Positions 13,421 to 53,168 of a DNA stretch of 64,000 bases are shown here, one piece after another. The notes beneath the pieces were generated by a model. The model did not search any database, was not told where the DNA came from, and saw nothing but the letters and a program-made list of their open reading frames with translations. The position numbers and the translations under genes are program-made. The stretch is from Desulfobacula toluolica Tol2 (lineage in GTDB: Bacteria; Desulfobacterota; Desulfobacteria; Desulfobacterales; Desulfobacteraceae): the NCBI RefSeq assembly GCF_000307105.1, contig NC_018645.1, forward strand, positions 1,624,578 to 1,688,577, written 5' to 3'. Numbering within the stretch: the stretch's first letter is position 1; every line of letters starts with the position of its first letter.

Positions 13421-13448
13421 TTGACACGATATTAATGCTGCTTATTGT
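13421..13448 (+). promoter_or_regulatory. Candidate promoter for the type I exporter operon
   Basis: TTGACA at 13421-13426, a 16-base spacer, then TATTGT at 13443-13448. It lies about 85 bases before the ATG of the small membrane protein that opens the operon. Confidence 0.4.
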
Positions 13449-13533
13449 AACGTAACGCATTGACCGTGGGCTTTATTATAATGATCCGGGTTTTAAGTTG
13501 ACGCAGAACTGATAGGTTTTTAAGGAGATAAAA

Positions 13534-13743: not shown

Positions 13744-13746
13744 GCT

Positions 13747-18717: not shown

Positions 18718-18719
18718 AT

Positions 18720-20030
18720 ATGGAAGAATTAAATAAAATATTAAATACAAATCCCTTAAAATATATTATTGCCGGGTTATTTGTTATTGCCCTGTTTTTT
18801 GGGGGAATTACTGTGTGGTCTGTATATTTTCCCTTCCAGGGTGCGGTCATTGCCTCGGGGGTGGTCAAGGTGTCAGGAGAAAGAAAAGTGGTTCAGCACC
18901 TTGAGGGTGGAATCATTGAGAAAATTTTTATAAAGGAAGGGGACACGGTCAAGGAAGGGGATGTTCTTATTGAGTTGAAAGGTTCCCAGGTCAGTTCAAA
19001 TGTAGATCTTCTCCGGGGGCGGCTGAGGGCTAAGCAGGCAGAGGCGGCAAGGCTCCGGGCGGAAGCGGGCATGAAATCAAAGATTGTCTGGCCCAAAGAG
19101 TTTGATAAATTAAAAACCAACCCGGAGATTGTTGAGAATATAGCTACGGAAACAGATATTTTCACGTCCAGGCGCTCTGACATACAGGGAAAGATAGAAC
19201 TGCACCATTCACAGATAAAGCAGCTGGAAAATCGTATCGAAGGAGCCAGGGAAGAACTTGGCAGCCAGGTGGAAATCATCGAGAACCTGGAAGAAGATTT
19301 AAAGAGCAAACGGCCCTTGTTAAAGGAAAAATATATGGGAAAAACCAATATCCTTGAACTTGAAAGAAGCCTGTCTACTTATAAGGGACAAAAAGGCAAG
19401 CTTAACCAGGATATTGCACAGTTTCTTCAGATGATTGAGGAACTCAAGCTTCGGATTGTGGACATAGAGAACCAGTACAGGGAACAGGCCGTGTCAAAGC
19501 TGGGGGATGTGACTGATGTGATATTTGAAATAAAAGAACAGATCAAACCTCAGCTGGATGCCAAGGAGCGTTTGGAAATACGGGCACCTGTGAGCGGGGT
19601 GGTCATTAACATGCAGGTACATTCCGAAGACAGCGGTGTGATCCGGCCAGGTATGCCCCTGCTTGAAATAGTGCCGGAAGACTTGAAAATGATTATTTCG
19701 ACACAGGTCCGGCCCCAGGATATTATCAGTGTGAAAAAGGGGCAGGATACCAAGGTGCAGTTGGCTGCGTTTCAACGAAAATCCACGCCTCCCATAAAAG
19801 GCAGGGTGACCTATGTGTCCCCGGATTTAATGAGCCAACAGACGGCTCAGGGTACCATGTCCTATTATGAAGCCCATGTGGAAGTGGATAAAAACGATTT
19901 AAAAGCCAAAAATGCCTATTTGTCACCCGGCATGCCCGTGGCCTGTTATATTACAACCGATCAGCGCACCGTGATCAGCTATCTTTTAGGGCCCCTGCTT
20001 AAAAATGTTGACATGGCCATGCGGGAGTAA
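18720..20030 (+). CDS. HlyD/AprE-family periplasmic adaptor
   Basis: 436 residues starting two bases after the third ABC gene, with an AGGAG ribosome site. A cytoplasmic N-tail is followed by one membrane segment (about 14-36) and a lipoyl-like half motif (VVQHLEGGIIEKIFIKEGDTVKEGDVLI, 58-85). A long coiled-coil hairpin (about 90-270), the second lipoyl half (RAPVSGVVINMQVHSEDSGV) and a beta-barrel with membrane-proximal domain complete it. It bridges the ABC proteins and the TolC channel. The domain order is exactly that of PrtE/AprE adaptors. Confidence 0.93.
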   Translation: MEELNKILNTNPLKYIIAGLFVIALFFGGITVWSVYFPFQGAVIASGVVKVSGERKVVQHLEGGIIEKIFIKEGDTVKEGDVLIELKGSQVSSNVDLLRGRLRAKQAEAARLRAEAGMKSKIVWPKEFDKLKTNPEIVENIATETDIFTSRRSDIQGKIELHHSQIKQLENRIEGAREELGSQVEIIENLEEDLKSKRPLLKEKYMGKTNILELERSLSTYKGQKGKLNQDIAQFLQMIEELKLRIVDIENQYREQAVSKLGDVTDVIFEIKEQIKPQLDAKERLEIRAPVSGVVINMQVHSEDSGVIRPGMPLLEIVPEDLKMIISTQVRPQDIISVKKGQDTKVQLAAFQRKSTPPIKGRVTYVSPDLMSQQTAQGTMSYYEAHVEVDKNDLKAKNAYLSPGMPVACYITTDQRTVISYLLGPLLKNVDMAMRE

Positions 20031-20036: not shown

Positions 20037-21149
20037 GTGGCAAAAATAACACATATTTTTAAGACCTATTTTCCAGAAACCAACGGGGGCCTGGAAGAGG
20101 CTATCCGGCAGTATGGAAGCCATGCCGCAAAGAACGGGTTTGATGTTGAAGTTGTCTCTGTGGGGCCAAAAACCTATACCGTTAACGCACCCGACGGAAT
20201 AAAAACAAAATTTTACAAAAAAACCTTTGACGTTTTTTCAAATCCGTTCAGTTTTGTTTTTGCCCGCTCATTTAAAAAAATAGTTGAAGATACAGACATT
20301 CTTCACTTTCATTTCCCCTGGCCCACGGCAGAACTTCTGGTACTTTTTTATAATATAAAGAAACCTGCTCTGGTGACATTCCACTGTGATATTCACAAGA
20401 TCAAGCCTTTAAAAAGACTTTACCTGCCATTTGTGAAACAATATCTAAAAAAAATAGATAAAATCTGCATTTCAAGCAAGGTTCTTTTAAAGACCACCCC
20501 CTACCTTGCCCAATTCAGGGATAAAATAGAAGAGGTCTCTTATTTTATAAACGAAAAACGATTTTCCAATCTCCCTGATCCAGACCCGGAAATTATTGAG
20601 TTCACACAAAAAATTAAAAATTATGCATTGTTTGTCGGGGTTTTAAGGTGGTATAAAGGGCTTGACATCCTTCTGGATGCTGCAAAAAAAATTGAAGATG
20701 ATATTGTTATTGTGGGCAAAGGAGATCTTTATGACAGGCTTTATTCCAGAATAAAAAATGAAAATCTGAAAAATGTTCATTTGCTGGGATTCCAGAACGA
20801 CAATAATCTGAAGTTTTTAATTGAAAAATCAGGGCTTATCGTTCTGCCGTCTATCGCACCTGCCGAGGCATTCGGCCAGATCCTTCTTGAGGGACTTTAT
20901 TTTTCAAAACCCCTGGTTTCGACGGAGCTTGGTACCGGCACAAGTCTTGTGAACCGGCACAACTATACGGGCTTTGTGGTTAAACCCGGTAGTGGTGTCT
21001 CCCTGGCCGGTGCAATGAATAAACTCTTAACCGATGATGTTTGTTCTAAAAAGTTCTCGAAAAATGCCTATCACCACTATCTGGACAATTTTACGGCCAC
21101 AGCCCAAGGGGATAAATATATTCGGATCTATAGATCCTTTCTTCAGTAG
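20037..21149 (+). CDS. GT4-type glycosyltransferase in the exporter operon
   Basis: 370 residues from a GTG start six bases after the HlyD gene. GT-B fold, GT4 family: an N-terminal THIFKTYFPETNGGLEEAIRQ acceptor loop, LFVGVLRWYKGLDILLDAA at the start of the nucleotide-sugar domain, and the E-x7-E-type motif EAFGQILLEG near 285. It is cytosolic and uses a nucleotide sugar; the donor cannot be told. Its place at the end of the type I exporter operon suggests that the exported protein, or a linked glycan, is its target. Confidence 0.85.
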   Translation: MAKITHIFKTYFPETNGGLEEAIRQYGSHAAKNGFDVEVVSVGPKTYTVNAPDGIKTKFYKKTFDVFSNPFSFVFARSFKKIVEDTDILHFHFPWPTAELLVLFYNIKKPALVTFHCDIHKIKPLKRLYLPFVKQYLKKIDKICISSKVLLKTTPYLAQFRDKIEEVSYFINEKRFSNLPDPDPEIIEFTQKIKNYALFVGVLRWYKGLDILLDAAKKIEDDIVIVGKGDLYDRLYSRIKNENLKNVHLLGFQNDNNLKFLIEKSGLIVLPSIAPAEAFGQILLEGLYFSKPLVSTELGTGTSLVNRHNYTGFVVKPGSGVSLAGAMNKLLTDDVCSKKFSKNAYHHYLDNFTATAQGDKYIRIYRSFLQ

Positions 21150-28235: not shown

Positions 28236-29666
28236 ATGATTGAAATTGATACGCCCGGGGTTGATATAGATAAAATAAAGGCCTGCATCCAAGAAGAACT
28301 GGAACAGTATAAAACAGTCAATGGGGGGAGATCTTTTAAATCCATTCCCTGTCCGTCTGATTTTAAATCGGCAGAGCAATGGCGTATTGATGATTGTGTC
28401 AGCAAAGAAACCCTTTTGCAATTCCACGGGCCGGAATTTATAAACAAGGCATATATTTCAATACTTCACAGAAAACCTGATTTCCAGGGGAAGGCCATCT
28501 ATCTTGATAAATTGCAGAATGGTCAGCTTACTAAAATCGAAATTCTGGGCAGGCTCAGGTATTCCAGAGAGGGACGTCTTAAAAAAGTTTATATAAAAAA
28601 TCTTTTGTTTCCCTTTCTACTTAAAACTTTTTTCAAAATCCCCGCATTGGGTTGGGGCTTGAGAATTATGGCAGGAATTTTCAATCTGCCTATAATTTTG
28701 ATGAATATACAGAGAATTGAAAATACGTCGATTGCCCACTACAGTCTTATGGAAGAGAAGGATAAAAATACTCGAACGCTGATTTTAAAATTAGATGAGG
28801 ATATTCAAAGCCTTAAGACCGACAGCATCCAGGCCCGATCTGACCTGGCAAAGGAAGTCTCCTTGGTTAAAACAGATTTATTAAAACAGATAAAAGATAA
28901 CACAATAACGCTTCTGGATATGCAGCGCAGAATTCAAACCCATTTGGAAGAGGCCAGAAAAAGATTTCCTGAACCGATTTCAAATGACCAGCTTGTACAT
29001 GTGGTCAAAGAAGAGGACCACCTTTTTGATGCAATGTATCTGAGTTTTGAAGACCGGTTCCGGGGCACGGAAAATGATATCAAAGAGCGGGTGAAGGTTT
29101 ATCTTCCCTATGTGCAAAAAGCGTGTGAAAATACAAAGGATAAGTCACTTCTGGATGTGGGTTGCGGTCGGGGGGAGTGGCTTAAGCTTTTAAAGGAGAA
29201 CAATATTGCAGCCGCAGGCCTTGATCTGAACGGTGTTATGGTGGAAAAATGCCGGGATGCTGATCTGGATGTTGTCCAATCCGACTTGCTGGCATATCTT
29301 AGAAACTTAAAAGCCGATACGCTTTCTGTGATCACAGGGTTTCATATTGTAGAACATTTGCCCTTTAATACTATGATTTCTTTGTTTGATGAATCTTTGA
29401 GGGTTTTAAAACCAGGTGGCATGGTTGTTTTTGAAACCCCCAATCCTGAAAACCTGATGGTGGGTGCATGTGATTTTTATACGGATCCATCACACAAAAA
29501 TCCCATTCCGCCCCATACGCTTTCCTATCTGGTTGAAGCCAGGGGATTTGTAAATATTGAAATAGTGAGACTTCACCCCAATAATGCCATTCAGATTGAA
29601 GATCCGTTTTTAAATTACTATTTTACAATTGGGCAGGATTACGCTGTTATTGGATTTAAAGAATGA
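28236..29666 (+). CDS. DUF4214-coiled-coil-methyltransferase, WbdD-like chain terminator
   Basis: 476 residues. Order: helical N-terminus with a TDFKSVP-type repeat insertion (residues 30-45), a DUF4214-like segment (about 63-115, FINKAYISILHRKPDFQGKA), an amphipathic/hydrophobic stretch (123-158), a coiled coil (about 165-260), then a class I SAM methyltransferase (LDVGCGRGEWLKLL near 304, GFHIVEHLPF, LKPGGMVVFETPNPEN). The methyltransferase type and gene position match O-antigen chain terminators, where the coiled coil sets chain length. No kinase domain is present, unlike WbdD of E. coli O9a. Chain-end methylation recognised by Wzt_C is the likely role. Confidence 0.8.
   Translation: MIEIDTPGVDIDKIKACIQEELEQYKTVNGGRSFKSIPCPSDFKSAEQWRIDDCVSKETLLQFHGPEFINKAYISILHRKPDFQGKAIYLDKLQNGQLTKIEILGRLRYSREGRLKKVYIKNLLFPFLLKTFFKIPALGWGLRIMAGIFNLPIILMNIQRIENTSIAHYSLMEEKDKNTRTLILKLDEDIQSLKTDSIQARSDLAKEVSLVKTDLLKQIKDNTITLLDMQRRIQTHLEEARKRFPEPISNDQLVHVVKEEDHLFDAMYLSFEDRFRGTENDIKERVKVYLPYVQKACENTKDKSLLDVGCGRGEWLKLLKENNIAAAGLDLNGVMVEKCRDADLDVVQSDLLAYLRNLKADTLSVITGFHIVEHLPFNTMISLFDESLRVLKPGGMVVFETPNPENLMVGACDFYTDPSHKNPIPPHTLSYLVEARGFVNIEIVRLHPNNAIQIEDPFLNYYFTIGQDYAVIGFKE
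28325..28371. repeat. Palindromic repeat unit in the methyltransferase gene
   Basis: GGGAGATCTTTTAAATCCAT followed by a TTTTAAATCGG half-site. The encoded peptide SFKSIP...SDFKS resembles the repeats at 3360, 3608 and 5471. The unit sits between the N-terminal helix and the DUF4214 segment; the frame is kept. Confidence 0.4.
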
Positions 29667-37523: not shown

Positions 37524-37849
37524 AATAGCAAACACGGCTTCATCCGGTATTTTGCTGTGTCCAAGGTTAAATTAAACCATATCTGTATAAATATGGCCAA
37601 ATATTATAATTTTTTGTTCCGAGACCATTGGCCGGTTAAATTGTTTTGGTAAACCATTGGTGCTGGCAGATACCCGCTGGGCCGGAAGAATACAGCATAA
37701 TTCGGATTTGCCCGGCGCAGTTAAACTTGTAGAAAAGTTGACATTGGTATCTTATTTGCATATGTTGAATCGAGAATGAAATTGTGAGTATTATCTGTGC
37801 CATTTTTATGGTGGCGCAATTATTAATTTATTGTTAAGGAGAATAAAGA
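37524..37849. other. 326-base intergenic region before the giant gene
   Basis: AT-rich leader of the giant DUF4214 gene. It contains the sigma-70-like promoter described separately and an AAGGAG ribosome site (37836-37841) eight bases before the ATG. The predicted 5' leader is about 75 bases. No strong terminator for the upstream glycosyltransferase gene is seen. Confidence 0.6.
37738..37766 (+). promoter_or_regulatory. Sigma-70-type promoter of the giant DUF4214 gene
   Basis: TTGACA at 37738-37743, a 17-base spacer and TATGTT at 37761-37766. Perfect -35 and ideal spacing; about 80 bases before the start codon. Confidence 0.55.
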
Positions 37850-40800
37850 ATGGCAGTAACAAGAGAAGAAGTTGCAGAGCTTTTCGCGGCTACATTTAAT
37901 AGAGCGCCACTTTCCGAGGGACTTGACTATTGGACAAGCAGTGATTTTACCATTGAGATGGTTGCCAATAGCTTTTTTGACCAAGCTGAAGCTCAGGCTA
38001 TTTATACTAACGACGGCGATCCAATCTCGAGTGAAGAGTTTGTGATCAGAATTTTTGACAATCTTTTTAACCGTCTTCCGGCAGTGGCAGGACTTGAATA
38101 CTGGACCAATGCCCTGGATAGCGACGCTGTTTCCCAGGGTGAAATGATTTTGGCTGTAAAAAATGGCGCAACAGGAGACGATGCGCTTATCCTTGCCAAC
38201 AAGACCGAAGTTGGTCTTTATCATGCTGACCAGGGCGCAACAGGCACTGATTTTTCCCTTGCAAATATCGACGCCACTGATGCCAGCGTGGCATCTGCAA
38301 TGGCTGCCGTTGATGCCACGATAACAGAACGTTTAACGCTCACGCAACGTGCCGACAAATCCACCGGTACTGATGGTGATGACGTGTTCGTGGCGCCGGT
38401 TACTCAGAACGAAATCGGTTCTGGTGAGCTGGCTAACACCTTTGAAACCGGCGACGTACTGAGCGGCGGACAAGGGGCTGATGTTCTGCGTGCAGACCTC
38501 ATCGCCACGGGTACTATCCAGGATAACTTTAACGGTGCAGCGATCTCTGCTACGACCACTGGTATCGAAGCGGTTTACCTGACGGCCATCACACCGCAGA
38601 TCGATACTGCTAACAACACCACTTGGGCCTCTACAATTGATGCAGGCAGAATGGCAGATGTTGAGCAGTGGTGGACTGATGAAAGCCGCGCTGACGTCCA
38701 GATCGAAGACATCCGCACCCGTCCCCAGGACACTGTCTTTGGTATGGAGCTGACGGATCCTAACGTAAGCTACAGTGCATTTTTCAACCCGCTGTTCCTT
38801 GACGGTGATATGAGTGCTGAATCTGCGCTGACACTGATCGTTCAGGAAATCACCGATGGCCAGGCACCGTCTGTTACTGAACTGGAAAATATCACTGTTA
38901 GAGAAATAAACTTTTCTCTGGGCGGTACTGACTACACCCTGGATACCGAAGACATCCGTGCTGCCAACACCTGGGCTGATCTGGAAACCGCTATCGCTGC
39001 TGAACTGGTCGAGCAGGGTCTGGCCACACTGTCTGTCTCTCACACTGGCAACGGTGTGTTTGAAATTAACGATAGCGAAGGCACGGCTTTCGCAGTTGAA
39101 GATGGTGAAGCCCTGATCCTGGGTGTGGCCTCTGATATCGATACACGTAACCGTCTAGAAGTAGGTCGTCTGGAAACTGAAGGCCAGACCTCCAGCACCC
39201 TGATTCTGGATGGCGCTGGTTCCGGTTCCCAGGGCGGCGCTGTGAACATCGCGGCCGCTTCTGGTGATCGTGGTGTTGAAGTCATGGATGTTCAGGTGGG
39301 TCGCGACAGCCACATCTCATCCCTGGCTTCTGAAAACAACCCACGTAATGTAGCTTCTGGTTTCGAGATGGAGCAGATGCTGGAAGAAGTCAACGTTACG
39401 CACACAGACGCCGGCACGGGTACTCTGCAGATCGGTACTCGTACTGTTGATGCACAGGGTGTTTCCACCACTACGGATGACCGTTTGAACACCGATGGCC
39501 TGACTGACGTGCGTATATTTGATGCTTCCGGCTTTGATGCTGCATTGAAAGTCGGTGCTGCTCTGACCGGTAACGCCTTCGACAAATACCTGGCGGATGC
39601 CGATGACACTGTTCAGTTCAGCTACCTGCTGGGCGATGCCGGTTCCAACCTGAACCTGGCTGTGAACAACGTGCTTGCGGGTGATGTTGACTTTGCCCTG
39701 GAAATCGTTGGTGGTGATGGTGATGATCGTATCAACCTTTCTGGTCTGGCCGATAAGCATCAGACTGCTGTTGACGGTGAGCTGAGTGATAACACCCTGG
39801 AGGTCAATACTTCCACCGGGTTTGCTGCAACACAAAATGGTTTTGACGTTGCTGTTGCTGCTGGGACTGACCTGAATGCTGCTGAAACCTCTTTTGACGA
39901 TGTTTCCAATATCGACACGGTTGTTATTGGTGCTAACACCGTCAACGTTGGCGCTCAGGCAAATGTTGCTGCAGCACAGGCTGCTGCTATAGCTCCTGCT
40001 GCTAATGCAAACTTTGCTGATACAACTCACGATATCTCCGCAGGTGGCTTTGGTGACGTCGACAACTTTGTGATTGCAACCAACACCACTGTTGACTATA
40101 CCATTGGTGGAGTCGCTTTTACTACAAACATCAATGGCATCACTGACACTCGCCTGATCAACCTGGATGCCACCACGCAGACCGCTGAAGTTTCTGGTAA
40201 AAATCAGACTCTGGGAGCAGGTAACAGCGATAACAACCAGGCCTTTGGCACAATTCGCCTGTCCAATACTACCGGCAGCGAACTGGATCTGGCCCTGAGC
40301 AACACAGCTCGTGCTACTGGTAGGCTGACTGTTAACGCGCTGACCATCGACGGTAATACCAGCGAGGTTCGCACGCTGAACCTGGACTCTGCGGGCACAC
40401 GTCAGACCAGCAATACCGTTGCTGCCCTGAACGGTAACCTGGTGAATACCTTCAACCTGGAAGGGTCTCAGGATCTGCGCATCACCAACTTGGCTTCTGC
40501 AGCTAACTCTATTGCTGCCATCGCTGCAGATATTGACAGCCTGGACGTTGATGCCAGCACGCTGGAAGGTGATCTCTACCTGGGTGTTACTGGTGCAGTC
40601 GTAACCGCTATTGACGGCGCTATGGGTACCAACCGTACCGTTGAACTTATCGGTACTGAAGGCACAGCAGATATTCTGAATATCCGTGATGGTGTAACAA
40701 CCACCAATGCAACAACAATCTCAGAATTTGAGACTATTCGCTTTGGAGACGGCGGCACAGGTATTGCTGCTTCCCCATCTATCACCGTCGCAACAAATTT

Positions 40801-42196
40801 TAATGCGACCAACGTAGCCGATGTTGATCTATACGATCTGATTGATAGCACCGTTGCTATTTCATTGACAAATTTGCGTGCTACCGAGAATGTGCAGATC
40901 AACTCAGTTGATACAAATGGCTCAACTGTTAATGGTGATGTAACGCTTGCTGCTGCAAATCCGACTACTGGAAGCGCGGTTAATGTTGATTTTGTTTCAG
41001 ATACTGTAGCAGGTGCCGTTGATGCCAGCTTCTGGGGTGTTGGCGGTAACAACCTTAACGTTCAGGATTTCGCTGCAATTAACCTCGATATGGGGGGATC
41101 AACTGTTGACAGCTATGATTACAACTTTGAGCTGAATCTTATGGCTAACCCCACAAGCGGTCTTGTTAATGCCCGTACGCTGGAAATCACCGGTGGTGCA
41201 GGTGTTGGCGTGTTTCAGGACACTTTGACCCTGGGTCTGCTGGATACAGCACTGACCCTCGTTGATTTCTCTAACTACAATGGTTCTTTTACGACACAAG
41301 GTTGGGATAGCCTTAAGGGTACCAATGCGACTGTTGCTGTCAATGAATTTGATTTTATCTTTGATGTTGGTGGAGACAATACTGTAATTGCCATTCCAGC
41401 TGCAGCAGCACCTGCTTCTGTTGATACGGCTGAGATTATTACTGTTGATCTCACCCTCGGTGGTGGTATTGTAGGTGCTGGAGCCCTGGCGGCGGGTGAT
41501 TCAATCACCATTAACTTCGCTGGTGGCGAATATGTATTTAACAACACTACAGGTGCTGCGATTGCAGAGGCTTCACTTGATGAGGCCATCGTTGCCGACG
41601 CTGGGAACCACCCGGATGCATTCAGCATTGTTGCCGGCGCTGGTAATGCGTTGACACTTACAGCGGCTATCCCCGGCGACATGCCCGCAGCAGTTATTAC
41701 CTCATTGCAGGGTGGTGTTGCCGGTGTTACTGATGCAGCAGTTACTGCTGCTGTAGTTGTGGCTACAGCTGGTGATGTGGTTGGTACAAATGTTACCGGT
41801 TTTGATCTTGTAACCGCAGCTTCGGAGTACATTACAGCGTTTGATTTCAATACTGATGCAGATGCATTCGGTACTATCTGGCAGATTAATAATTTCATGG
41901 CGTTCGAAGCTGGTGAAAATATTGATCTTAGTAATCAGTCTATCATTGACCTGCGTGACCTTGGTGTTGACAGCGCGGCAGATATCAGCGTTCAAGCTGG
42001 TGATGCCTACTTGGCTGGATTGACAGCGGCTGAAATTGCAGTTTACGATGCTGCACAAGGTTTAGGTTTCTCAGCGGCCAATTTTGTTGCAGGTAACGCA
42101 GTTGTTACCTCTAACGAAGGTTTGAACTACACCATCCTTCTTACTGGTGTCGATTCTGCTGATCTGGTTAATGAAAACTTCTCCGGCATCGCTTAA
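37850..42196 (+). CDS. Giant DUF4214 secreted surface protein (S-layer/adhesin-like type I substrate)
   Basis: 1448 residues, acidic, Ala/Thr/Asp/Asn-rich, almost without Cys, no Sec signal. The N-terminus has two DUF4214 units (ELFAATFNRAPLSEGLDYW, about 8-48; IFDNLFNRLPAVAGLEYW, about 66-105). GTDGDDVFVAP near 174 resembles the glycine-aspartate motif of type I substrates. The remainder is beta-rich repetitive sequence, and the tail ends LNYTILLTGVDSADLVNENFSGIA, a hydrophobic end as expected for ABC-exported proteins. From about residue 160 (base 38330) the codons become GC- and CTG-rich; by hand count 38341-38400 is 36/60 G+C against 19/60 at 20221-20280. Likely exported by the 13.7-20 kb system; inference. 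Confidence 0.8.
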   Translation: MAVTREEVAELFAATFNRAPLSEGLDYWTSSDFTIEMVANSFFDQAEAQAIYTNDGDPISSEEFVIRIFDNLFNRLPAVAGLEYWTNALDSDAVSQGEMILAVKNGATGDDALILANKTEVGLYHADQGATGTDFSLANIDATDASVASAMAAVDATITERLTLTQRADKSTGTDGDDVFVAPVTQNEIGSGELANTFETGDVLSGGQGADVLRADLIATGTIQDNFNGAAISATTTGIEAVYLTAITPQIDTANNTTWASTIDAGRMADVEQWWTDESRADVQIEDIRTRPQDTVFGMELTDPNVSYSAFFNPLFLDGDMSAESALTLIVQEITDGQAPSVTELENITVREINFSLGGTDYTLDTEDIRAANTWADLETAIAAELVEQGLATLSVSHTGNGVFEINDSEGTAFAVEDGEALILGVASDIDTRNRLEVGRLETEGQTSSTLILDGAGSGSQGGAVNIAAASGDRGVEVMDVQVGRDSHISSLASENNPRNVASGFEMEQMLEEVNVTHTDAGTGTLQIGTRTVDAQGVSTTTDDRLNTDGLTDVRIFDASGFDAALKVGAALTGNAFDKYLADADDTVQFSYLLGDAGSNLNLAVNNVLAGDVDFALEIVGGDGDDRINLSGLADKHQTAVDGELSDNTLEVNTSTGFAATQNGFDVAVAAGTDLNAAETSFDDVSNIDTVVIGANTVNVGAQANVAAAQAAAIAPAANANFADTTHDISAGGFGDVDNFVIATNTTVDYTIGGVAFTTNINGITDTRLINLDATTQTAEVSGKNQTLGAGNSDNNQAFGTIRLSNTTGSELDLALSNTARATGRLTVNALTIDGNTSEVRTLNLDSAGTRQTSNTVAALNGNLVNTFNLEGSQDLRITNLASAANSIAAIAADIDSLDVDASTLEGDLYLGVTGAVVTAIDGAMGTNRTVELIGTEGTADILNIRDGVTTTNATTISEFETIRFGDGGTGIAASPSITVATNFNATNVADVDLYDLIDSTVAISLTNLRATENVQINSVDTNGSTVNGDVTLAAANPTTGSAVNVDFVSDTVAGAVDASFWGVGGNNLNVQDFAAINLDMGGSTVDSYDYNFELNLMANPTSGLVNARTLEITGGAGVGVFQDTLTLGLLDTALTLVDFSNYNGSFTTQGWDSLKGTNATVAVNEFDFIFDVGGDNTVIAIPAAAAPASVDTAEIITVDLTLGGGIVGAGALAAGDSITINFAGGEYVFNNTTGAAIAEASLDEAIVADAGNHPDAFSIVAGAGNALTLTAAIPGDMPAAVITSLQGGVAGVTDAAVTAAVVVATAGDVVGTNVTGFDLVTAASEYITAFDFNTDADAFGTIWQINNFMAFEAGENIDLSNQSIIDLRDLGVDSAADISVQAGDAYLAGLTAAEIAVYDAAQGLGFSAANFVAGNAVVTSNEGLNYTILLTGVDSADLVNENFSGIA

Positions 42197-42220
42197 TTGT
42201 CAGTTTGAAGATGTAGCATG

Positions 42221-42262
42221 AAAAAAGGCCACCCGCCACCCTTTGGTGGGTGGCCTTTTTTT
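42221..42262 (+). terminator. Rho-independent terminator of the giant gene
   Basis: AAAAAAGGCCACCC ... GGGTGGCCTTTTTTT: eight GC-rich pairs extended by A/T pairs, with further CCACC/GGTGG pairing possible inside the loop and a seven-T tail. It lies 25 bases after the stop codon. Confidence 0.9.
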
Positions 42263-42265
42263 AAA

Positions 42266-42521
42266 GTGCGCCCGCTTAGGAGTGTGGTGCGTATGCACCA
42301 TCCATCAGGCTGTGGTGCCCATATGGAGACAGTAACTACTTACTATTTGACATGCACTTTGTAGTTCGGCAGCCTGTCTCTCAAAGCCTGGACTAATCAG
42401 CTATATGCATTAGTTTCATCGTTTTCAACATTTTTTGTGAACCGCCGTGTACAGAACAAGTACGCACGGTGGTGTGGGAGGACGGCAGGGATGATGACAA
42501 CACCCCTGCCTCCGACTCGAT
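42266..42521 (+). mobile_element. Remnant of a group II (IIC-like) intron
   Basis: Starts with GTGCG (42266-42270), the group II 5' consensus, three bases after the terminator T-run. Near the 3' end is a domain V-like hairpin: ACCGCCGTG (42441-42449) pairs with CACGGTGGT (42465-42473), TAC with GTA, leaving a two-base CG bulge on the 3' side. A domain VI-like stem GGCAGGG/CCCTGCC (42484-42490, 42504-42510) follows, and the element ends ...CTCGAT. Only about 256 bases remain, so most of domain I and the reverse transcriptase are gone. Group IIC introns characteristically insert just after terminator hairpins, which is where this sits. Confidence 0.6.
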
Positions 42522-42564
42522 CCCGTTACTCTTATACAGCACATCTTTTCTCTCTGGAGTCACT

Positions 42565-43371
42565 ATGTTTAAACAGCTAATCCCCTTAAATGCCGAAACA
42601 CACCGTGACCTGCTTTTTTCACCTAACCAATCCTTCGATTTTGCGAGGGAACAGGTTATGTTGCCGCTGGTTGCCTCAGAACTGAACAAGGTTGCGCGTG
42701 AAATGGCTATTGTTTTTCCGCTGGAGGGTGGCGTTCCCCAGGCACTGGTCGGCGTTGATGCGGGGCATAACCTGTACATTAATCAATCCGGTTATTGGTT
42801 AGGGCGTTATATCCCAGCGCAATTGCGTCGGTATCCCTTTGCCTTAACAGAAGTCGACGCGACCTCTGAACAATTGGCAGAACACGGGCGCCGTTTTGCC
42901 CTGCAGGTGGATATAGCTTCTGCCCACCTCAATCAAACCGGTGGCCAACGGTTGTTCGAGGAAAATGGGCATCCGACAAAACTGCTCAAAAAGGTGCAGC
43001 GCATTCTAATGCACATACGGGCCGATAATGAACGCACGGTCGCCATGGTTGCTGAACTGGAGAGCCTTGATCTGCTTGTGCCCCAGTATCTTAAGATCAA
43101 CCCTGATTCCGGCAACCCCAGGGTCATCAGCGGATTTCGATTGGTTGATACCCAGGCTTTTGCTAAACTAACACCAGATCAACTGGGAGGCCTGCACACT
43201 AGTGGCTCACTCGCCTTGATCTACGCTCACTTCATTTCCCTTAGCAACCTCGAAGACGGTTGTCTTGCTAAGCAGGCAGCTAATAGGGGAACACAAACGG
43301 TTGAAAAGGATGAAATTGACTTGGAAAAAATCTTCGGTAGCTTCAACGATACCTTAAAATTCGACTTTTAA
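42565..43371 (+). CDS. SapC-family protein
   Basis: 268 residues from ATG 42565, with CTGGAG upstream. It belongs to the SapC family (named from the S-layer locus of Campylobacter fetus): an N-terminal MFKQLIPLNAETHRDL, the hallmark GRYIPAQLRRYPFAL, GQRLFEENGHPTKLLKK and a C-terminal LGGLHTSGSLALIYAHFISLSNL. No signal peptide or membrane segment. The biochemical function of the family is not established; members occur beside secreted surface proteins and TonB receptors. GC-rich codon use matches the giant gene's body. A decayed relative lies at about 45.9-46.3 kb. Confidence 0.85.
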   Translation: MFKQLIPLNAETHRDLLFSPNQSFDFAREQVMLPLVASELNKVAREMAIVFPLEGGVPQALVGVDAGHNLYINQSGYWLGRYIPAQLRRYPFALTEVDATSEQLAEHGRRFALQVDIASAHLNQTGGQRLFEENGHPTKLLKKVQRILMHIRADNERTVAMVAELESLDLLVPQYLKINPDSGNPRVISGFRLVDTQAFAKLTPDQLGGLHTSGSLALIYAHFISLSNLEDGCLAKQAANRGTQTVEKDEIDLEKIFGSFNDTLKFDF

Positions 43372-43485
43372 CCCCCAAGCCTGACCTCATATACTTGGCA
43401 TCACGCTCACGATGCCGATGATGACGGCTTTTTTGCCTTAAAACACTCAACTGAGTATGTATAACCTAAGGAGATACCCCCCAAC

Positions 43486-43719
43486 ATGACCAACAAGACT
43501 GATAAAGCCCAGACCACAGCCACACCGGGTCAGACCCTCACCATCGATGGTGTTGATTACAACGCAGCGGATCTGTCTGAGAATGCCAAAAATCAGATCA
43601 TGAACCTGCGTGTGACCGATCAGGAGATTGCCAGCCTGCAGCAGAAGCTGGCCATTGCACAGACTGCTCGTGTGGCCTATGCCAATGCCCTCAAGGCTGA
43701 ACTGCCTGCGGCCAAGTAA
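43486..43719 (+). CDS. Small conserved protein downstream of sapC-like gene
   Basis: 77 residues with an AAGGAG ribosome site. The central LTIDGVDYNAADLSENAKNQIMNLRVTDQEIASLQQKLAIAQTAR-like pattern (a short beta hairpin then an amphipathic helix) recalls the DUF6447-type small proteins; family naming is tentative. No membrane segment. It is in the same GC-rich block as the SapC gene and ends it: bases after 43730 return to the AT-rich local style. It probably works with the giant protein or SapC. Confidence 0.65.
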   Translation: MTNKTDKAQTTATPGQTLTIDGVDYNAADLSENAKNQIMNLRVTDQEIASLQQKLAIAQTARVAYANALKAELPAAK

Positions 43720-45779: not shown

Positions 45780-45919
45780 ACTGAATGGGATAGGGTATGG
45801 GGAATTGAAGCCTTATTATTATACTAGTTATATGATAAATGAAAAATTCATATTTGGCTGATAACTATAATTAAAATAAGGTGTTATATATCATGCTTAA
45901 AAAAAAATTAGGCTCTGTC

Positions 45920-46295
45920 TTCCCCAAGCCCTGCTTTTCCTTGAATCCGATAAAAATGCTTTTGTAGATGAGAAGGGAAACTGGAAAGTTCCTTAAACCG
46001 ATATCCCCAAAATTGTGCGGCCACCTGTAAAGAAAACTATTTTTTCCAATGTACCTGCTCATTTCAGACAGTATCCGTTCACGCTGCCTGAAATCCAGGA
46101 TCAGGCATAAAAAGGCTTTAACGGCTTGAAAGGTGTTGACATGGAAAAACTTCTTGCCATGGATTATAAGAGCATTGCAGGCTATGTGAAAAATGGTATC
46201 ATGGGAATGGTTTATGATCATAACCATTCATGGTCTAATTGTTCAAAACTCCCAGCACTCGCAGCAAAAATAGGAACATTAAACAGATCTGATTT
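45920..46295 (+). pseudogene. Decayed SapC-family gene
   Basis: One frame, interrupted by TAA at 45994 and TAA at 46108, reads LLFLESDKNAFVDEKGNWKV, then SNVPAHFRQYPFTLPEIQ and GVDMEKLLAMDYKSIAGYVK followed by NGIMGMVYDHNHSWSN. These match the intact SapC protein at 42565 (YIPAQLRRYPFALTEVD; FRLVDTQAFAKLTPDQLGGL; SGSLALIYAHFISLSN) in order, with an internal deletion between the middle and C-terminal parts. The AT-rich codons are of local type, so this looks like a native copy, unlike the imported one. Confidence 0.75.
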
Positions 46296-46415: not shown

Positions 46416-46519
46416 ATGATTGAAAAGAATACGACCTCATCGGGTATAATTGAGCTCCACATTGCCATATTTAATCGGGCACCTAATTCAGCCGGTTTGG
46501 CATATTGGATAGCGGTGGA
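46416..46519 (+). pseudogene. 5' fragment of a DUF4214 protein gene
   Basis: ATG at 46416 with AAAGGA eight bases upstream. It reads MIEKNTTSSGIIELHIAIFN and then RAPNSAGLAYWIAVD, aligning with the giant protein's ELFAATFNRAPLSEGLDYW. The frame is cut by the end of an IS3-family element at 46520. The rest of the DUF4214 unit is found on the other side of the element at 51471. Confidence 0.8.
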
Positions 46520-46567
46520 TGTCAAGCAAGATGTCGCCTTTTTCTAAAACACTTTGTTAATATTCCC

Positions 46568-46658: not shown

Positions 46659-47546
46659 CTATGCAGCCCTCTTTGCCGTATCAGTGGATTGTTTTACCTT
46701 CTTAAATCTTTTTAAAACAACCTCTGTAAAGGGTTTCCAGTTCCTTGTTTTTTTTGACCATCTTTCAGGATGTTTCGTTTTAGCCTTCTGATACACATGA
46801 TGACGATTTTTAAGGATTTGTATATCCCTGCCGTTGTGTCGATCTTCCGGAGTGACATAATTAATGCCGCTATGCAGATGCTCCTTATTATACCAATGAA
46901 TAAAACGATTTGCCCATTCTCTGGCATCAAATAGATTTTCAAATGGTTTGTCCGGATATTCCGGTCGATATTTTAATGTCCTGAACAATGACTCTGAGTA
47001 TGGATTATCATTGCTGATACTGGGTCTGCTGAATGAGGGAATAACTCCCAAATCCTGAAGCTTTGCCAGCATGGTGGCAGATTTCATGGGAGATCCATTA
47101 TCAGAATGCAAGGTGACTTGTTCTTCTGAAATTTTTTCTTGATTGCAGGCATCCGTTATAAGTTCAGCTGCCAAATCACCGGATTCATATTCATAAACTT
47201 GACATGCCACGGCTTTTCGGCTGTATAAATCCATCACCATATATAGGTAAAAGAACCTGCCCCTTACTGTTGACGGCAAATACGTTATGTCCCAGCTCCA
47301 CAACTGGTTCGGGGCATTTGCAATCAATGGATCAGGACTGTGCCTTTTTGCGGGAAGACTGGATTGACGGTGTTTATTCATTTTTAAGTCCCTAAGAATT
47401 CTGTACATGGTTGATTCAGAACCCAGATAAATTCCCTGGTCAGCAAGTCTTGGTACGATCTGATTTGGATTGGACTCAGCAAATTCAGGCGACTCTAATA
47501 CATTGGCTATCCGGGTCTTTTCATCATCAGACAATTTGTTACCAGG
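46659..47546 (-). pseudogene. IS3 transposase OrfB, 3' part with DDE domain
   Basis: The catalytic integrase core is complete: WDITYL (first D), HSDNGSPM (second D), and NPYSESLFRTLKY (E). Upstream is NPNQIVPRLADQGIYLGSES, typical of this IS3 subgroup. The open frame runs to the IS21 junction at 47547; the missing N-terminal helix-turn-helix part lies at 50747-50932. The gene is therefore disrupted although each half is otherwise undamaged, showing a recent event. Confidence 0.85.
47541..47546. repeat. Left target-site duplication of the IS21-family element
   Basis: ACCAGG at 47541-47546, directly repeated at 50747-50752 on the far side of the element. Confidence 0.85.
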
Positions 47547-47679
47547 TGATCAACGACAAATATTTTTTTCCTTCAACGACAATTAAAATTCCCGTTTCTC
47601 ATTCCTTTATAACCTGCTGATTTTATATTTTTTTTCATTATTAACTTGATATTTTTTGTAACATTGATAATATCCCTCA

Positions 47680-47873
47680 CGCCGGTCTGGAGGATAGGGC
47701 AACTGCTGGGAAGCAACCCGAGCGCCGTGACTGGTGACGAAGACATGGGGGGCAGTATGCTGTCCAATGTATTCTGCCCTTCCCCCCATGTTTTTGTCCT
47801 TCATGCGTTAAATCCCCGCGCCTTAGCGCGGAACAAATACCCCGTAGGGCCGCCGGAGGCATATTGTTTTTCT
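47680..47873. other. GC-rich structured segment in the IS21-family element
   Basis: No gene recognised. ACATGGGGGG (47744-47753) and CCCCCCATGT (47784-47793) form a perfect ten-pair stem with inner GGCAG/CTGCC pairing; CGCCTTAGCGCG and a GGCCGCCGG-rich tract follow. Base composition is clearly higher in G+C than in the flanking IS DNA. It may be a structured RNA, a terminator for the minus-strand passenger genes, or captured DNA. Confidence 0.4.
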
Positions 47874-48053
47874 TCATTTTTCTGCTTGATACTTGAAACC
47901 CGCTTTAATCAATATATCCTCCAAAATTATCCCAACCTCACCTCTTTTTTTGAGCTCATCAAGCATCCACCGCTGGATGCGGGCATTCACATGAACACGC
48001 TTTAGATGTGACGGCAATTTCGGTTTTGGTTTTCCTCTATATCCTCCACGCAT
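47874..48053 (-). CDS. Small basic passenger protein of the IS21-family element
   Basis: 59 residues beginning MRGGYRGKPKPKLPSHLKR, with HVNARIQRWMLDELKKRG and ILEDILIKAGF after it. A perfect AAGGAG lies six bases before the ATG. Basic N-terminus followed by a beta-strand and two helices could suit a ribbon-helix-helix DNA binder, but no family is certain. A good ribosome site and its location inside a mobile element suggest a regulator of transposition. Confidence 0.55.
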   Translation of the reverse strand: MRGGYRGKPKPKLPSHLKRVHVNARIQRWMLDELKKRGEVGIILEDILIKAGFKYQAEK

Positions 48054-48183
48054 ACCATCTCCTTTTTAAATAAAAAAACCCGAAAGCCTTGCCATTCAAA
48101 GATTATAGATAACCGTACAACGCTTTACAAAAAAAATATGTGATTTTCGCATAAAAAAATGGCCGTTTATTATTCATCTGTTT

Positions 48184-48417
48184 TTAAACAGGATTATTAT
48201 AAAAACCGGTTCTGCCATGTGTTAGGCCATGTCGTGATAATATACGCCCAATAGTTCTCACAGAAGGTATTGGCTGGATATTCTCATTCTCCATTTCCTC
48301 CCTTATAACCCTGGCGCCACAGTGCAGGCCTCTATTGTATAAATGCAGCCGTATCATTTTGACAATTTCTACGAGTTCTTCCCTGGTATATGCTGTTTCC
48401 ATATCGTGTTCGAACAT
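48184..48417 (-). CDS. Integrase-like fragment following istB
   Basis: 77 residues whose start overlaps the istB stop by one base. LHLYNRGLHCGARVIREEME and SVRTIGRILSRHGLTHGRTG resemble the region just before the DDE core of integrase-type transposases; the catalytic core itself is absent and the frame stops soon after. It may be a truncated third transposase gene or a retained short protein; translational coupling to istB supports expression. Confidence 0.55.
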   Translation of the reverse strand: MFEHDMETAYTREELVEIVKMIRLHLYNRGLHCGARVIREEMENENIQPIPSVRTIGRILSRHGLTHGRTGFYNNPV

Positions 48418-49166
48418 TATCTTGCCTCCTTTTTGGCCTGCTCCATGCGATAGCTCTCAACATTCAATTCAAAGATAATGCTGTGATGAACAAGCCTGTC
48501 GATAGCCGCAGCCGTCGTCATCGGATCTTTAAAAATCTGTTCCCACTTGGAAAAGGGAAGATTGCTGGTGATCATCAGACTGCCTTGCTCATACCGGTCT
48601 GCCAGGAAGGTGAACAGCACCTCCATCTCTTCCCGGCTTTGCTGGACATATCCGATATCATCGATAATCACGGCATCAAACCTGGAGAGGCTTTTGAGCT
48701 TTTTTGTCAACTCAAGCTCCCTTTTGGCGATCAGCAGCTCCTGAACAAGCTGGCTGCATGAGATGAAAAGGACCTGCTTTCCTTTTGCAATCAATTCATG
48801 GCCAATGGCACACAACAGATGGGTTTTCCCGCTTCCCGGATTCCCAAAGGCCAAAATATTTTCAGATCGGCTTAAAAAAGAGCCGTCGATCAGTACATTC
48901 AAATGATTAGCGACCTTTATGGGAAGGCGTTTTTTATCAAAATTTTCAAAGGTCTTTGACGGTGGCAGCTTGGATGCCCTCAGGTTCCGTGCTATCCGGT
49001 TTTGCCACCGCACTTCACATTCAAGATTCAGCAGCTGTAAAAGATACTGTTCATACCCCCATGACTCCGCCCGGGCCTGATCTGCCATTTCTTCATAGCT
49101 GCGGCGCATGGTCGGCATGTGGAGACTCTTGAGATGGTTCATGATCTGGTCATGATCACTCATCAT
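48417..49166 (-). CDS. istB: IS21-family transposition helper ATPase IstB
   Basis: 249 residues of the DnaA/IstB AAA+ type. Walker A GNPGSGKTHLL near 112, Walker B AVIIDDIGYVQQ near 170, and SNLPFSKWEQIFKD, a hallmark of the family. It assembles on DNA and directs IstA to targets. It overlaps istA by 4 bases. All motifs intact. Confidence 0.95.
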   Translation of the reverse strand: MMSDHDQIMNHLKSLHMPTMRRSYEEMADQARAESWGYEQYLLQLLNLECEVRWQNRIARNLRASKLPPSKTFENFDKKRLPIKVANHLNVLIDGSFLSRSENILAFGNPGSGKTHLLCAIGHELIAKGKQVLFISCSQLVQELLIAKRELELTKKLKSLSRFDAVIIDDIGYVQQSREEMEVLFTFLADRYEQGSLMITSNLPFSKWEQIFKDPMTTAAAIDRLVHHSIIFELNVESYRMEQAKKEAR

Positions 49167-50641
49167 GCTGCCACCTCCTTGAGAAGTTTGTCATAAAGGG
49201 TTAAATCAACTGCCGGAATATGGATATCATCTGGTCCGGCAACAGGGGCATTGGATTCCATAAGGCGCTGAACAGCATCTTTGCTGATTTCATGGCTTTC
49301 GTTTATTAAAACCGTCAAAGCACTGTCTACAGCCACTTCACTGTCTTTTGCGGCAAGGTATAGAATCTTCAAATATCTTGAGGCAGCGCTTTGAACAGTA
49401 TAGCGTTCTTTTAAATAGTCATAGGCAATCCGGAAACGGCTGGTGGGAAACATGGCATCACGATAGCGGTAGTTTTCAAACGCCCTCGGCTTTTTGACCA
49501 GGCTGTCAATGATATGCCGGTAATTGATTTTGTGCTTCCCCTCACCCCGTAACCGTGGCAAGGTGTCGATCTTTTTCTGTCCGTACCAGATTTCCAGACA
49601 TTCCATGTAAAGACGAACCTGTATTTTTTCTCCTATGAGCCTGCTGTTCACTGAGTAGACATTGTGATTGACTCGTATGGTACTGCTGGGACCGACTTTT
49701 AAATCCAGTTTTTTACATGAGTCGATCCGGCGTTTGGGGAGCCGATGCAGGAGTTCCACTTCTTCTGCAAGGCGGCCTTTTCGGCCGGCATTCAGTTGCC
49801 CAAACAACCTGGACAGAAAACTCTCATACTCTTCCCGGTCTTTAAAATCCCGGTGACCTCTCAATAACAGGGCTTGTTCAACGGCTTTTTTGAACCGGTA
49901 ATTGCGCTGCTCCACATCACCATTTTCATTGGGGCTGGACGGGTTCGTTTTAGAAGGAGTCAGACCGTAATGGTCGACAAGATCCTGATATCTGCGGGTG
50001 AACTCTTCCGGGTGGGTCTCCTTGTTGACAGCGGCAGCCAAGCGATCTGTGCGGTGATGATACGGTACACCGCCCAATTCCCATAAAGCATTTTGCAGGC
50101 CCTGGCTCAGGCTTTCAAAACTCTCGGAGAAACATATGGTACCGGTTTCCCAGTTGGAATAGGTTAAAACAAAATGATAAATCATGTGATCAAAAGGAAC
50201 GCCGGATATGGTGATGCCCAGCTCATCCATATGGGTGAAGTCAGACTGGCATAATTCGCCCGGCTTATGAATTTGAGCGAAGAAAATTTCTTTACCCGGT
50301 CCTTCTGTTGCCCTCCAATGTTTTATCCTCCGTTGCAAGGTCCTCAACTGCCCATCGGCAAATCGGCTTGGCTGGTTTCTTTGAAGATCCTCAAAAATGG
50401 TTTTGGCTTCCAACCCCGGATTTATTGATAACATTCCTTTGATACCATCCCATACGTCTTCAAACGGGTCCTTACGTGTTCTCCAGTTATGCTCCTGTTT
50501 AAGTTCGCTTGGCAATTTGCCCATTTTACGGTACTTTCGAGCCGTTTTTTCATCCATACCTGCTTTCATTGCTGCTATCCCGAAATTTTTTTCAGTTTGA
50601 ATCAACTTGAATAACCTCCTCACTTGCTGGTCCGTTACCAT
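49163..50641 (-). CDS. istA: IS21-family transposase IstA
   Basis: 492 residues from ATG 50641, selected because GAAAGGAG precedes it; a start 18 bases further upstream is possible. N-terminal helix-turn-helix (VRRLFKLIQTEKNFGIAAMKAGM), DDE core with QSDFTHMDELG, the conserved HHRTDRLAAAV and NENGDVEQRNYRFK, then the C-terminal beta-barrel (LKVGPSSTIRVNHNVYSV). All catalytic acidic residues are present, so the element may be active. Confidence 0.95.
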   Translation of the reverse strand: MVTDQQVRRLFKLIQTEKNFGIAAMKAGMDEKTARKYRKMGKLPSELKQEHNWRTRKDPFEDVWDGIKGMLSINPGLEAKTIFEDLQRNQPSRFADGQLRTLQRRIKHWRATEGPGKEIFFAQIHKPGELCQSDFTHMDELGITISGVPFDHMIYHFVLTYSNWETGTICFSESFESLSQGLQNALWELGGVPYHHRTDRLAAAVNKETHPEEFTRRYQDLVDHYGLTPSKTNPSSPNENGDVEQRNYRFKKAVEQALLLRGHRDFKDREEYESFLSRLFGQLNAGRKGRLAEEVELLHRLPKRRIDSCKKLDLKVGPSSTIRVNHNVYSVNSRLIGEKIQVRLYMECLEIWYGQKKIDTLPRLRGEGKHKINYRHIIDSLVKKPRAFENYRYRDAMFPTSRFRIAYDYLKERYTVQSAASRYLKILYLAAKDSEVAVDSALTVLINESHEISKDAVQRLMESNAPVAGPDDIHIPAVDLTLYDKLLKEVAA

Positions 50642-50746
50642 CCAAATCTCTCCTTTCATAAGATTTGGCGGCTTTTACCATTTTTTTGATTTATATTTCA
50701 GGAATTTTAATTGTCGTTCGGCGGGTATTATATATGACGCTGATCA

Positions 50747-50932
50747 ACCAGGGTCGGCTCGGGAGCCTTTTCGGCTGTCCAATAGGCCATTTTTGCTCCA
50801 CCGCTGAAGGGTTCGAATGGTCAGTCCCAATAATTGGGCTGCCTTGCTTTTTCGTGCCCCTGATTTACAGGCCTCTGAAATCAATTTCAACACAGTTTTT
50901 TTGTCTTCTTGACTGATCAATCGTCCTCTGAC
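50747..50932 (-). pseudogene. IS3 transposase OrfB, 5' part
   Basis: Reads LISQEDKKTVLKLISEACKS and AAQLLGLTIRTLQRWSKNGL, ending SRKGSRADPG at the IS21 junction; it continues as NKLSDDEKT at 47546. It overlaps OrfA in another frame. A run of nine T (50953-50961; A9 on the coding strand) in OrfA is a likely slippery site for the OrfAB frameshift. Confidence 0.8.
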
Positions 50933-51414
50933 TCCCCCCAGATTTCCTGGGCTTTTTTTTTAAGAACCAGCAAGGCTGCTGTTTCTGCCAGAGCTTTGTC
51001 TTTACGGGACAGGTCTTTTTTTAGAGCAGCGATTTCTTTTTTAAGATTTTTGTACTCTTCAATTTGTTCTTTATTCGCCTTCGGGATTATTGCTGATATG
51101 GCATCTTTTTTCCACTGGTCCAAATTATGGATAAAAATACCATTTTTGCGGCACCAGGCAGTGCGTTCGTCAGCAGTCATGGAACCTGTTTTAATTATTG
51201 CTGAAATACGTTCTTCGGCTGTCCAGTCTTTGGGGCGTTTTTCTTTTGATTTCAATTTTATGCTTCCGTTTTGTTTGTATTCTCTTAACCATTTACCGAT
51301 TGTAGACCGGCCAACACCTAATTCTTTTGCAATTTCATGGTGGGGTTTGTTTCCCTGTAACACCTTTTTTAACACAGCTTCTTTTAATTGAATAGAATAT
51401 CCCATATTTATCAC
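50917..51414 (-). CDS. IS3 transposase OrfA
   Basis: 165 residues. Helix-turn-helix (KPHHEIAKELGVGRSTIGKWLREY), a second DNA-binding part and a leucine-zipper-like coiled coil near the C-terminus (EEYKNLKKEIAALKKDLSRK). The A9 run near codon 153 would shift ribosomes into OrfB. Intact. Confidence 0.88.
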   Translation of the reverse strand: MINMGYSIQLKEAVLKKVLQGNKPHHEIAKELGVGRSTIGKWLREYKQNGSIKLKSKEKRPKDWTAEERISAIIKTGSMTADERTAWCRKNGIFIHNLDQWKKDAISAIIPKANKEQIEEYKNLKKEIAALKKDLSRKDKALAETAALLVLKKKAQEIWGESEDD

Positions 51415-51806: not shown

Positions 51807-53168
51807 TCAATTATCAGCATTTTCAGATAATAGTTGTGCAATATATTCTTCTGCCTCTTCCATATGAAAATCACTACTTGTCGCAAGTCTGATAATATTT
51901 TTTGCCCAATCCATAAAATTTTCATTGTTTGTTGACGTTCCAAGTCCAGAATTAGCAAACAAAATACCGATTTCAGTTTTTTTCGTTAACATAGCGGCAT
52001 CTGCCGGGTCGCCGGTTGCAGCTTTAGCACCATTGATGACCGCCATAATTGCCTGGTCACGCCTAAGCGCTCCTTGGTCAAGCGCTCCTACCCAATAGGC
52101 AAGTCCTTCTGCTGTTGGAGTACGGCTTAAGGTATTCTGGAAAATTGTGGTGATAAATTGACTATTGCTGGACCCTTCAGGAAATTTGTCTTTCGTTTCC
52201 GGTTGGTCAAAAAAGGATTGTGTCACCTGATCGATAGTGAATAAGCTGGTTTCAATCGCATCAACCCAATACATTAAACCACCATAAGCGGGTGCTCTCT
52301 CAAAGGTTGCTACAAAAATTTCAGTAACAAGACGTTGACTCGCCTCGGAGAAAAGCATTTCATCATCAAAGCCGTCACAGTCCTGGTCAATACCGTCTCC
52401 TCTGATTTCATAGGCCACGGGGTGGATACTTGCGTTATAATCATTGCAATCGGTATGGTCTGTTACATATCCTGATGGCTGAGTCGTTGACTCTGTTGAA
52501 TTATTCGGGTTGCCATAGCCATCACCATCATGATCCCGGTAGTAAGTTGCACTGCCCCCATATAATGCTGCGACACCATTTATGTCATCTTGCTGCGGAA
52601 TGGTAATATCTCCGGCATATGTCCTCATAATGCTCACAGGTCCGCTATCTTCATGGTACAAGCCAAGGGCATGTCCTAACTCATGCACCGCAACACGCCT
52701 GAAGTCGTTCACAGAATACTTCCAGGAAGTTGAATATACATTCCAGGATTCATTGGAATTAAAAACAATATCAGTCTCGCTGATTGTAGAGCCAACAGTC
52801 CAGATCGTACAGACGGCAAGGGTAGCCGCGCCCCAATCGTCTCCGCAAAGTGTGGAGGAAAAGCTTACTCCATTCCTATCGTCATCTGGATCGCAGGGGT
52901 CAGAATATGTCCCGGGGACAATATAAAATTGAAATATGGTAGCAACGTTCCATTCGTACATAGCCCCCTCAAAAGAATCATTCCATAATCCGTTTTGGCC
53001 CGGGATGTCCACGTAAAAAGTAGTGGTGGGTTGAGGCCATTTAGTGTTTCCTAATTGATAAGCATAAGTCGTTGATACGCAGATAAAGACCACAAGTGAT
53101 AATAGACAAGCCAAAAGAGGTTTGTTTTTAAGTGCTTTTATTGGGCAAAAATTAGAAATTTTACTCAT
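51807..53168 (-). CDS. Matrixin-like metalloprotease with MopE and DUF4214 modules
   Basis: 453 residues. Signal peptide (about 16-37). Metzincin zinc site HELGHALGLYH (H162, E163, H166, H172) followed by the Met-turn SIM. A MopE-type calcium/copper motif (DCNDYNASIHPVAYEI and DGIDQDCDG, about 240-272), then two DUF4214 units (ATFERAPAYGGLMYW; NTLSRTPTAEGLAYW, about 285-420). The DUF4214 pair is C-terminal here but N-terminal in the giant protein. A Sec signal together with modules of type I substrates is notable. It overlaps the upstream gene by 4 bases. Confidence 0.88.
   Translation of the reverse strand: MSKISNFCPIKALKNKPLLACLLSLVVFICVSTTYAYQLGNTKWPQPTTTFYVDIPGQNGLWNDSFEGAMYEWNVATIFQFYIVPGTYSDPCDPDDDRNGVSFSSTLCGDDWGAATLAVCTIWTVGSTISETDIVFNSNESWNVYSTSWKYSVNDFRRVAVHELGHALGLYHEDSGPVSIMRTYAGDITIPQQDDINGVAALYGGSATYYRDHDGDGYGNPNNSTESTTQPSGYVTDHTDCNDYNASIHPVAYEIRGDGIDQDCDGFDDEMLFSEASQRLVTEIFVATFERAPAYGGLMYWVDAIETSLFTIDQVTQSFFDQPETKDKFPEGSSNSQFITTIFQNTLSRTPTAEGLAYWVGALDQGALRRDQAIMAVINGAKAATGDPADAAMLTKKTEIGILFANSGLGTSTNNENFMDWAKNIIRLATSSDFHMEEAEEYIAQLLSENADN

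Follow-up and report, generated by a model that had tools for sequence, protein, structure and literature searches.

The sapDEF genes of Campylobacter fetus are type I secretion genes, and the divergent homologs of its surface-layer (S-layer) protein reportedly, to go by the title of a 1995 paper, have a lipopolysaccharide (LPS)-binding domain in their conserved N terminus. The sap locus combines a conserved sapCDEF set with several copies of sapA or sapB and with recombinant sapAB forms, and sugar genes beside it have been connected with the synthesis of LPS and the binding of Sap proteins (PMC4943207). RsaA, the S-layer protein of Caulobacter crescentus, is exported by a type I system (PMC7821379) and consists of a helical N-terminal LPS anchor and an outer lattice domain, with residues 1 to 249 binding the O-antigen (PMC6978808). 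Here we analyze a 64,000-nucleotide stretch of the Desulfobacula toluolica Tol2 genome (contig NC_018645.1, positions 1,624,578 to 1,688,577; referred to here as the window, with coordinates counted from its first nucleotide and features on the forward strand unless stated otherwise), in which a giant gene (37850 to 42196) encodes a putative surface protein of 1448 residues. The window resembles the C. fetus sap locus in having a recombined gene for a putative surface protein and adjacent sugar genes; however, the recombination described for C. fetus is within one species, whereas the giant protein of the window appears to have acquired its body from a source well beyond the order, with replacement of SapC at the same time. 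Our reading, to which we assign a probability of roughly 0.85, is that the giant gene is a chimera in which a family-inherited head carries, grafted on at the head/body boundary, a distantly derived body that came with genes for a SapC-family protein and a DUF6447-like protein. Judged by sequence comparison, the chimeric structure, its breakpoint interval, the separate ancestries of its parts, and a remnant of the native SapC gene are all well established.

The head (residues 1 to 160, mostly helical; 37850 to 38329) matches the Pfam model of DUF4214 (PF13946) with 41.9 bits, above the curated cutoff of 23.2. With the region upstream, it forms a block (37550 to 38315) that is homologous at the DNA level to G306 and G154, genomes of the same family but a different genus: about 157 first codons and 300 bp upstream share 75.3% DNA identity with G306, and positions 37564 to 38235 share 72.1% with G154. 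In a search of 389 genomes from the order, the best protein matches of the head outside its own genome were likewise to G306 (75%) and G154 (70%), followed by G259 from a different family (59%), and head matches occurred in 19 genomes, its own counted. A tree of 21 chosen rows, several on long branches and 13 drawn from the 43 head matches in the order, grouped the head with G306 and G154 (support, 92/99), and placement with the Halomonas head, itself a long branch, was disfavored (P = 0.012). Three ABC proteins and HlyD, encoded upstream, are 70 to 76% identical to those of G306 (HlyD is 79% identical to that of G020), and both relatives have the same run, in which HlyD and sugar genes accompany the three ABC genes, at a divergence similar to that of the head. 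Because its 70 to 75% identity resembles that of the neighboring ABC and HlyD proteins (69 to 76%), the head fits inheritance in place.

These comparisons bear on an alternative in which head and foreign body had already been joined in a family member or closely related genus that has not been sampled, and this genome received the finished chimera together with SapC and DUF6447. DUF4214 was not found in the 25 other genomes of the genus searched (several incomplete), transposase genes lie nearby, and the 300 bp upstream travel with the head, all of which would agree with such an import. We nevertheless regard it as unlikely, since the divergence of the head from G306 is in line with that of the resident secretion genes, as inheritance in place predicts, and the import would merely shift the same fusion one step back. 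A first-pass annotation of the window had called the head local, which holds at the level of the family but found no support in the rest of the genus.

The DNA match to G306 ends at 38315, and similarity to sequences outside the order starts at 38393 for a Nitrosomonas metagenome-assembled genome (MAG; L016) and at 38387 for Halomonas (L019). These limits, together with the alignments, place the breakpoint between family-inherited and imported sequence within 38316 to 38386. Beyond it lies the putatively imported body (residues 163 to 1448; 38336 to 42193), CTG rich to about 40640 and less so thereafter. In the same set of 389 genomes, the body matched, outside its own genome, only G198, and there weakly and partially (38% over 170 amino acids). 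Of seven aligned loci outside the order, four are long relatives (the Nitrosomonas MAG, Halomonas, Thiohalocapsa [L017], and Lamprocystis [L018]), and the matches of the remaining three are limited to the query's first ~220 residues or to a piece of 51 residues; a plasmid search also found relatives of the body in Sulfitobacter. Identity to relatives outside the order reached 68% over the first 506 residues, and against Nitrosomonas it was 55 to 81% per 60-residue bin in residues 181 to 660 versus 23 to 34% in the three bins of residues 1 to 180. A tree of 12 chosen rows placed the body with Halomonas (85/87) and next with Nitrosomonas (98/98). The swap of the body proposed in the first-pass annotation is thereby supported, as the head has its best matches within the family and the body in the Nitrosomonas MAG and Halomonas.

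The elongation factor EF-Tu of this genome is 75 to 76% identical to those of Acetoanaerobium, Neisseria, and Klebsiella alike, so parts of the surface protein are as similar between lineages as EF-Tu is. These distances fit a lineage outside the Beta- and Gammaproteobacteria, such as the Desulfobacterota, and agree with, without proving, the view that this genome and the relatives of the body belong to different phyla. Against plasmid sequences, EF-Tu, HlyD, and the IS21 transposase all had distant matches only. A gammaproteobacterial donor, as had been suggested, is plausible but unproven, with a best overall body identity of 51% to any relative. The body was found in 1 of 125 genomes in the family of the Nitrosomonas carrier (the MAG itself) and in 3 of 201 in that of the Halomonas carrier (strongly only in the known carrier); because it is so rare in both families, the donor is probably unsampled. 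Viral contigs yielded no relative in the giant-protein alignment.

The two genes that follow the giant gene appear to share the ancestry of the body. The SapC-family gene (42565 to 43371, read from the ATG at 42565 within a longer open frame) matches Pfam SapC (PF07277) with an E value of 1.3e-62 and 211.7 bits (cutoff, 28.9) over model positions 1 to 218 of 220 and is thus full length. In a tree of 14 chosen rows, from which a SapC-like match in G013 with three stops was excluded, it grouped with Halomonas (97/95) and next with Nitrosomonas plus Lamprocystis (98/96), and forcing it into the native SapC clade was rejected by the approximately unbiased test (P = 1.6e-6). As a query, it matched itself alone in its own genome and nothing in the genome-contig collection. 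The protein of 77 residues encoded at 43486 to 43719 scores 23.7 bits against Pfam DUF6447 (PF20045), below the cutoff of 27, but is 47 to 53% identical to proteins annotated as DUF6447 in the Sulfitobacter loci L011, L012, and L014. It is 78% identical over 59 amino acids to a Halomonas protein (74.6% over 169 bp of DNA), with no match in the stretches of G306 and G154. Both genes had been predicted to have come along with the body, and both comparisons agree; the two halves of the giant protein and SapC do not find their best matches in the same relatives.

The native counterpart of SapC persists 2.4 kb past the new one as a pseudogene (45802 to 46273) in pieces with internal stops, recovered by tblastn and as three DNA segments that are 78%, 87%, and 78% identical to the SapC gene of G306 and its upstream edge. 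In the available stretches, SapC accompanies the body in five of seven carriers and DUF6447 likewise in five (window counted; SapC of L017 is divergent), and DUF6447 occurs in none of the four stretches with a native-type SapC (L031, L032, G306, and G154). The company of SapC and DUF6447 elsewhere, a genome assembled as a single 5.2-Mb contig, and a frame that is open across the join make it scarcely credible that an assembly error fused two genes, a notion for which we found no supporting evidence.

Heads and bodies are combined differently in other genomes. In G306 and G154, the same head type stands on another body, whose similarity just past the join is only low, and in G259 it stands on a third, with a frame that runs for 456 residues. 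The body type of the window lies behind DUF4214 heads in the window itself, in Halomonas, and in Sulfitobacter (Pfam scan of L011, to which L012 is 88% identical) and behind heads that Pfam does not assign to DUF4214 in Nitrosomonas, Thiohalocapsa, and Lamprocystis. Just past the join, the motif F-x-A-P-x-x-Q-N is present in all seven aligned rows and absent from G259, which is outside that alignment; it may mark the joint. The Sulfitobacter plasmid locus L014 carries, in order, type I genes, a methyltransferase, glycosyltransferases, a DUF4214 giant gene, SapC, and DUF6447, and its match to our giant protein is confined to the first ~290 residues. L011 and L012 carry the body type of the window, with no SapC found nearby. 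The heads of these Sulfitobacter loci are alphaproteobacterial. Behind their giant genes, G306 and G154 (L089 to L095) encode other large proteins that the window does not match, such as one of 1092 amino acids in G306, which are possibly further coat proteins.

Composition changes at the same place. The first-pass annotation had counted by hand 36 G+C in the 60 nucleotides at 38341 to 38400 against 19 of 60 at 20221 to 20280, and our recount gave exactly these values; 36 is reached by 21 of the 1066 tiled 60-mers of the window. GC content is 0.469 in the head, 0.530 at 38330 to 40640, 0.469 at 40641 to 42196, and 0.493 in SapC, compared with 0.425 for the window. CTG accounts for 1 of 12 leucine codons in the head, 53 of 64 in codons 161 to 920, 11 of 38 in codons 921 to 1448, 12 of 36 in SapC, and 5 of 7 in the DUF6447-like gene, with a genomic background of 0.27 (166 open reading frames [ORFs] of at least 200 amino acids from 15 stretches of the same genome). 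A change-point scan of synonymous codons located breaks near codons 140 to 170 (within codons 1 to 920) and, over the whole gene, near codon 930; both gains were larger than in any of 200 shuffles, for which the scan used a coarser step than for the real gene. The switch right after the DUF4214 head was therefore correctly placed, but the GC-rich, CTG-biased style, said to extend to 43719, stops near 40640; beyond that, the final third of the gene, like SapC, is atypical without being CTG rich. Residues ~660 to 780 and 1200 to 1320 are poorly shared with relatives, and because of these stretches and the second codon break, close to residue 930 (40640 to 42196), the body itself may be a mosaic.

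One observation weighs against an import: G306 and G154 show a similar codon contrast between head and body although their bodies differ, being GC and CTG rich too. For this reason composition fits the break but is not decisive and alone would not prove import. The same contrast, along with the weak G198 match, could be taken to mean that the body dates back to the ancestor of the order and has disappeared from its other members, with the break in codon use being a domain effect. This is extremely unlikely given that the other 387 of the 389 genomes have no match, that both the body and SapC cluster with Halomonas and Nitrosomonas sequences, the native SapC clade being rejected, and that a pseudogene of the native SapC can still be recognized. 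Alternatively, the composition could stem not from origin but from selection for strong expression. S-layer proteins are often very abundant, and the body prefers GGT and CGT, with ATC and AAC also preferred in its first part. However, CTG makes up only 17% of leucine codons in 35 ORFs of the ribosomal, EF-Tu, and RNA polymerase region compared with 83% in codons 161 to 920, so we rejected host expression bias as the cause of the CTG excess; such selection would also leave the homology pattern unexplained, and we consider it very unlikely as an account of the composition.

We therefore return to the chimera and propose the following working. Incoming DNA encoding a type I-secreted, S-layer-like body, SapC, and DUF6447 would have recombined at the head/body boundary of a resident giant gene, and the host would have retained its upstream control region and DUF4214 head while acquiring a new body along with its partners, and the host's own SapC gene would have decayed. 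The giant protein is presumably exported by the resident type I system, its head would serve as an RsaA-like anchor binding the LPS or O-antigen made by the neighboring sugar genes, as a weak fold match suggests, and its body would form an exchangeable outer coat facing phages and the environment. Since SapC and DUF6447 were apparently co-inherited with the body, we propose that they act with it and not with the head or the exporter. More tentatively, and with somewhat less than even confidence, units of body, SapC, and DUF6447 may cross distant groups, probably phyla, and be grafted onto the anchor head of each host. If so, heads would track the host lineage and bodies would not, and SapC would be a body-specific partner. 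Such a natural swap hints at a division of labor between the parts of a surface protein and supplies a natural rule as to which part of such a coat has to fit the host, and it gives a testable role as body partners to SapC and DUF6447, whose functions we did not find in the literature. What appears novel relative to the known within-species recombination of S-layer genes is a graft from far outside the order with paired replacement of SapC; no description of such a head/body swap was found in the literature, of which our search covered few subscription journals.

The head probably anchors the giant protein to the cell. The locus shares type I secretion genes with the RsaA- and SapA-like systems, and RsaA may also resemble the giant protein in its helical head: the N-terminal domain of RsaA was the best VIA-align row for the head model, a weak fold match, and Foldseek gave no match with an E value under 1. 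We found no sequence match to RsaA, and the available portions of RsaA accounts mention no role for SapC or DUF6447. A sequence search of the PDB gave nothing usable for the head, the body, or SapC, and the SapC model (pLDDT, 66.8) was too poor for a fold search to mean anything. The idea of DUF4214 as an anchor has been published for Halo4214, a Halomonas protein whose residues 16 to 104 were modeled on the Caulobacter S-layer protein and whose C-terminal part was suggested by its authors to be lipase-like (PMC11970703); the available part of that paper contains no head/body swap. Among its export features, the giant protein lacks Cys and has 8 Lys in the 1447 residues counted; its only Pfam match at an E value of 0.1 or better is DUF4214. 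Its body holds two GGxGxD motifs rather than the arrays of an RTX protein. In NCBIfam, six proteins had no match at an E value of 0.01. Among phage records, a single match to the giant protein covered the head only: a region of gp15 of EBPR siphovirus 2 (L115, 3915 to 5198), annotated as a protease, shares 37% identity with the head across 129 residues, and this phage perhaps uses the same surface-binding module.

Upstream of the giant gene, a promoter-like TTGACA-17-TATGTT (37738 to 37766), a consensus match only, is alignable in G306 and G154, as is the segment with a hairpin (37796 to 37818) between this site and the start codon; a terminator-like hairpin follows the gene (42235 to 42254). 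By consensus scan, neither promoter-like sites nor hairpins in the region, including terminator-like ones, were more numerous than in shuffles.

Several other features surround the gene. A methyltransferase fused to DUF4214 (28236 to 29666) lies within the sugar-gene cluster, and a matrixin-like protease on the reverse strand (51807 to 53168) has a DUF4214 domain 48% identical to the head over 130 amino acids. Beside the SapC pseudogene, 46416 to 46547 encode what seems to be the truncated start of another DUF4214-like protein, recognized from its translation and short matches to DUF4214 heads (52% over 29 amino acids to that of the giant gene). Transposase genes occupy 46659 to 51414 on the reverse strand, with an IS21-type istA/istB pair apparently nested in another element; they were named by reading, and istA alone is backed by a search. 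The type I secretion genes (12026 to 20030) encode an outer membrane OEP protein, three tandem ABC proteins, and HlyD, of which Pfam supports OEP, the third ABC protein, and HlyD; no counterpart of the OEP gene was found in the G306 and G154 stretches. Type I systems normally have a single ABC gene, and three in a row, here at 13747 to 18717, are unusual, with the same order found in G306 and G154.
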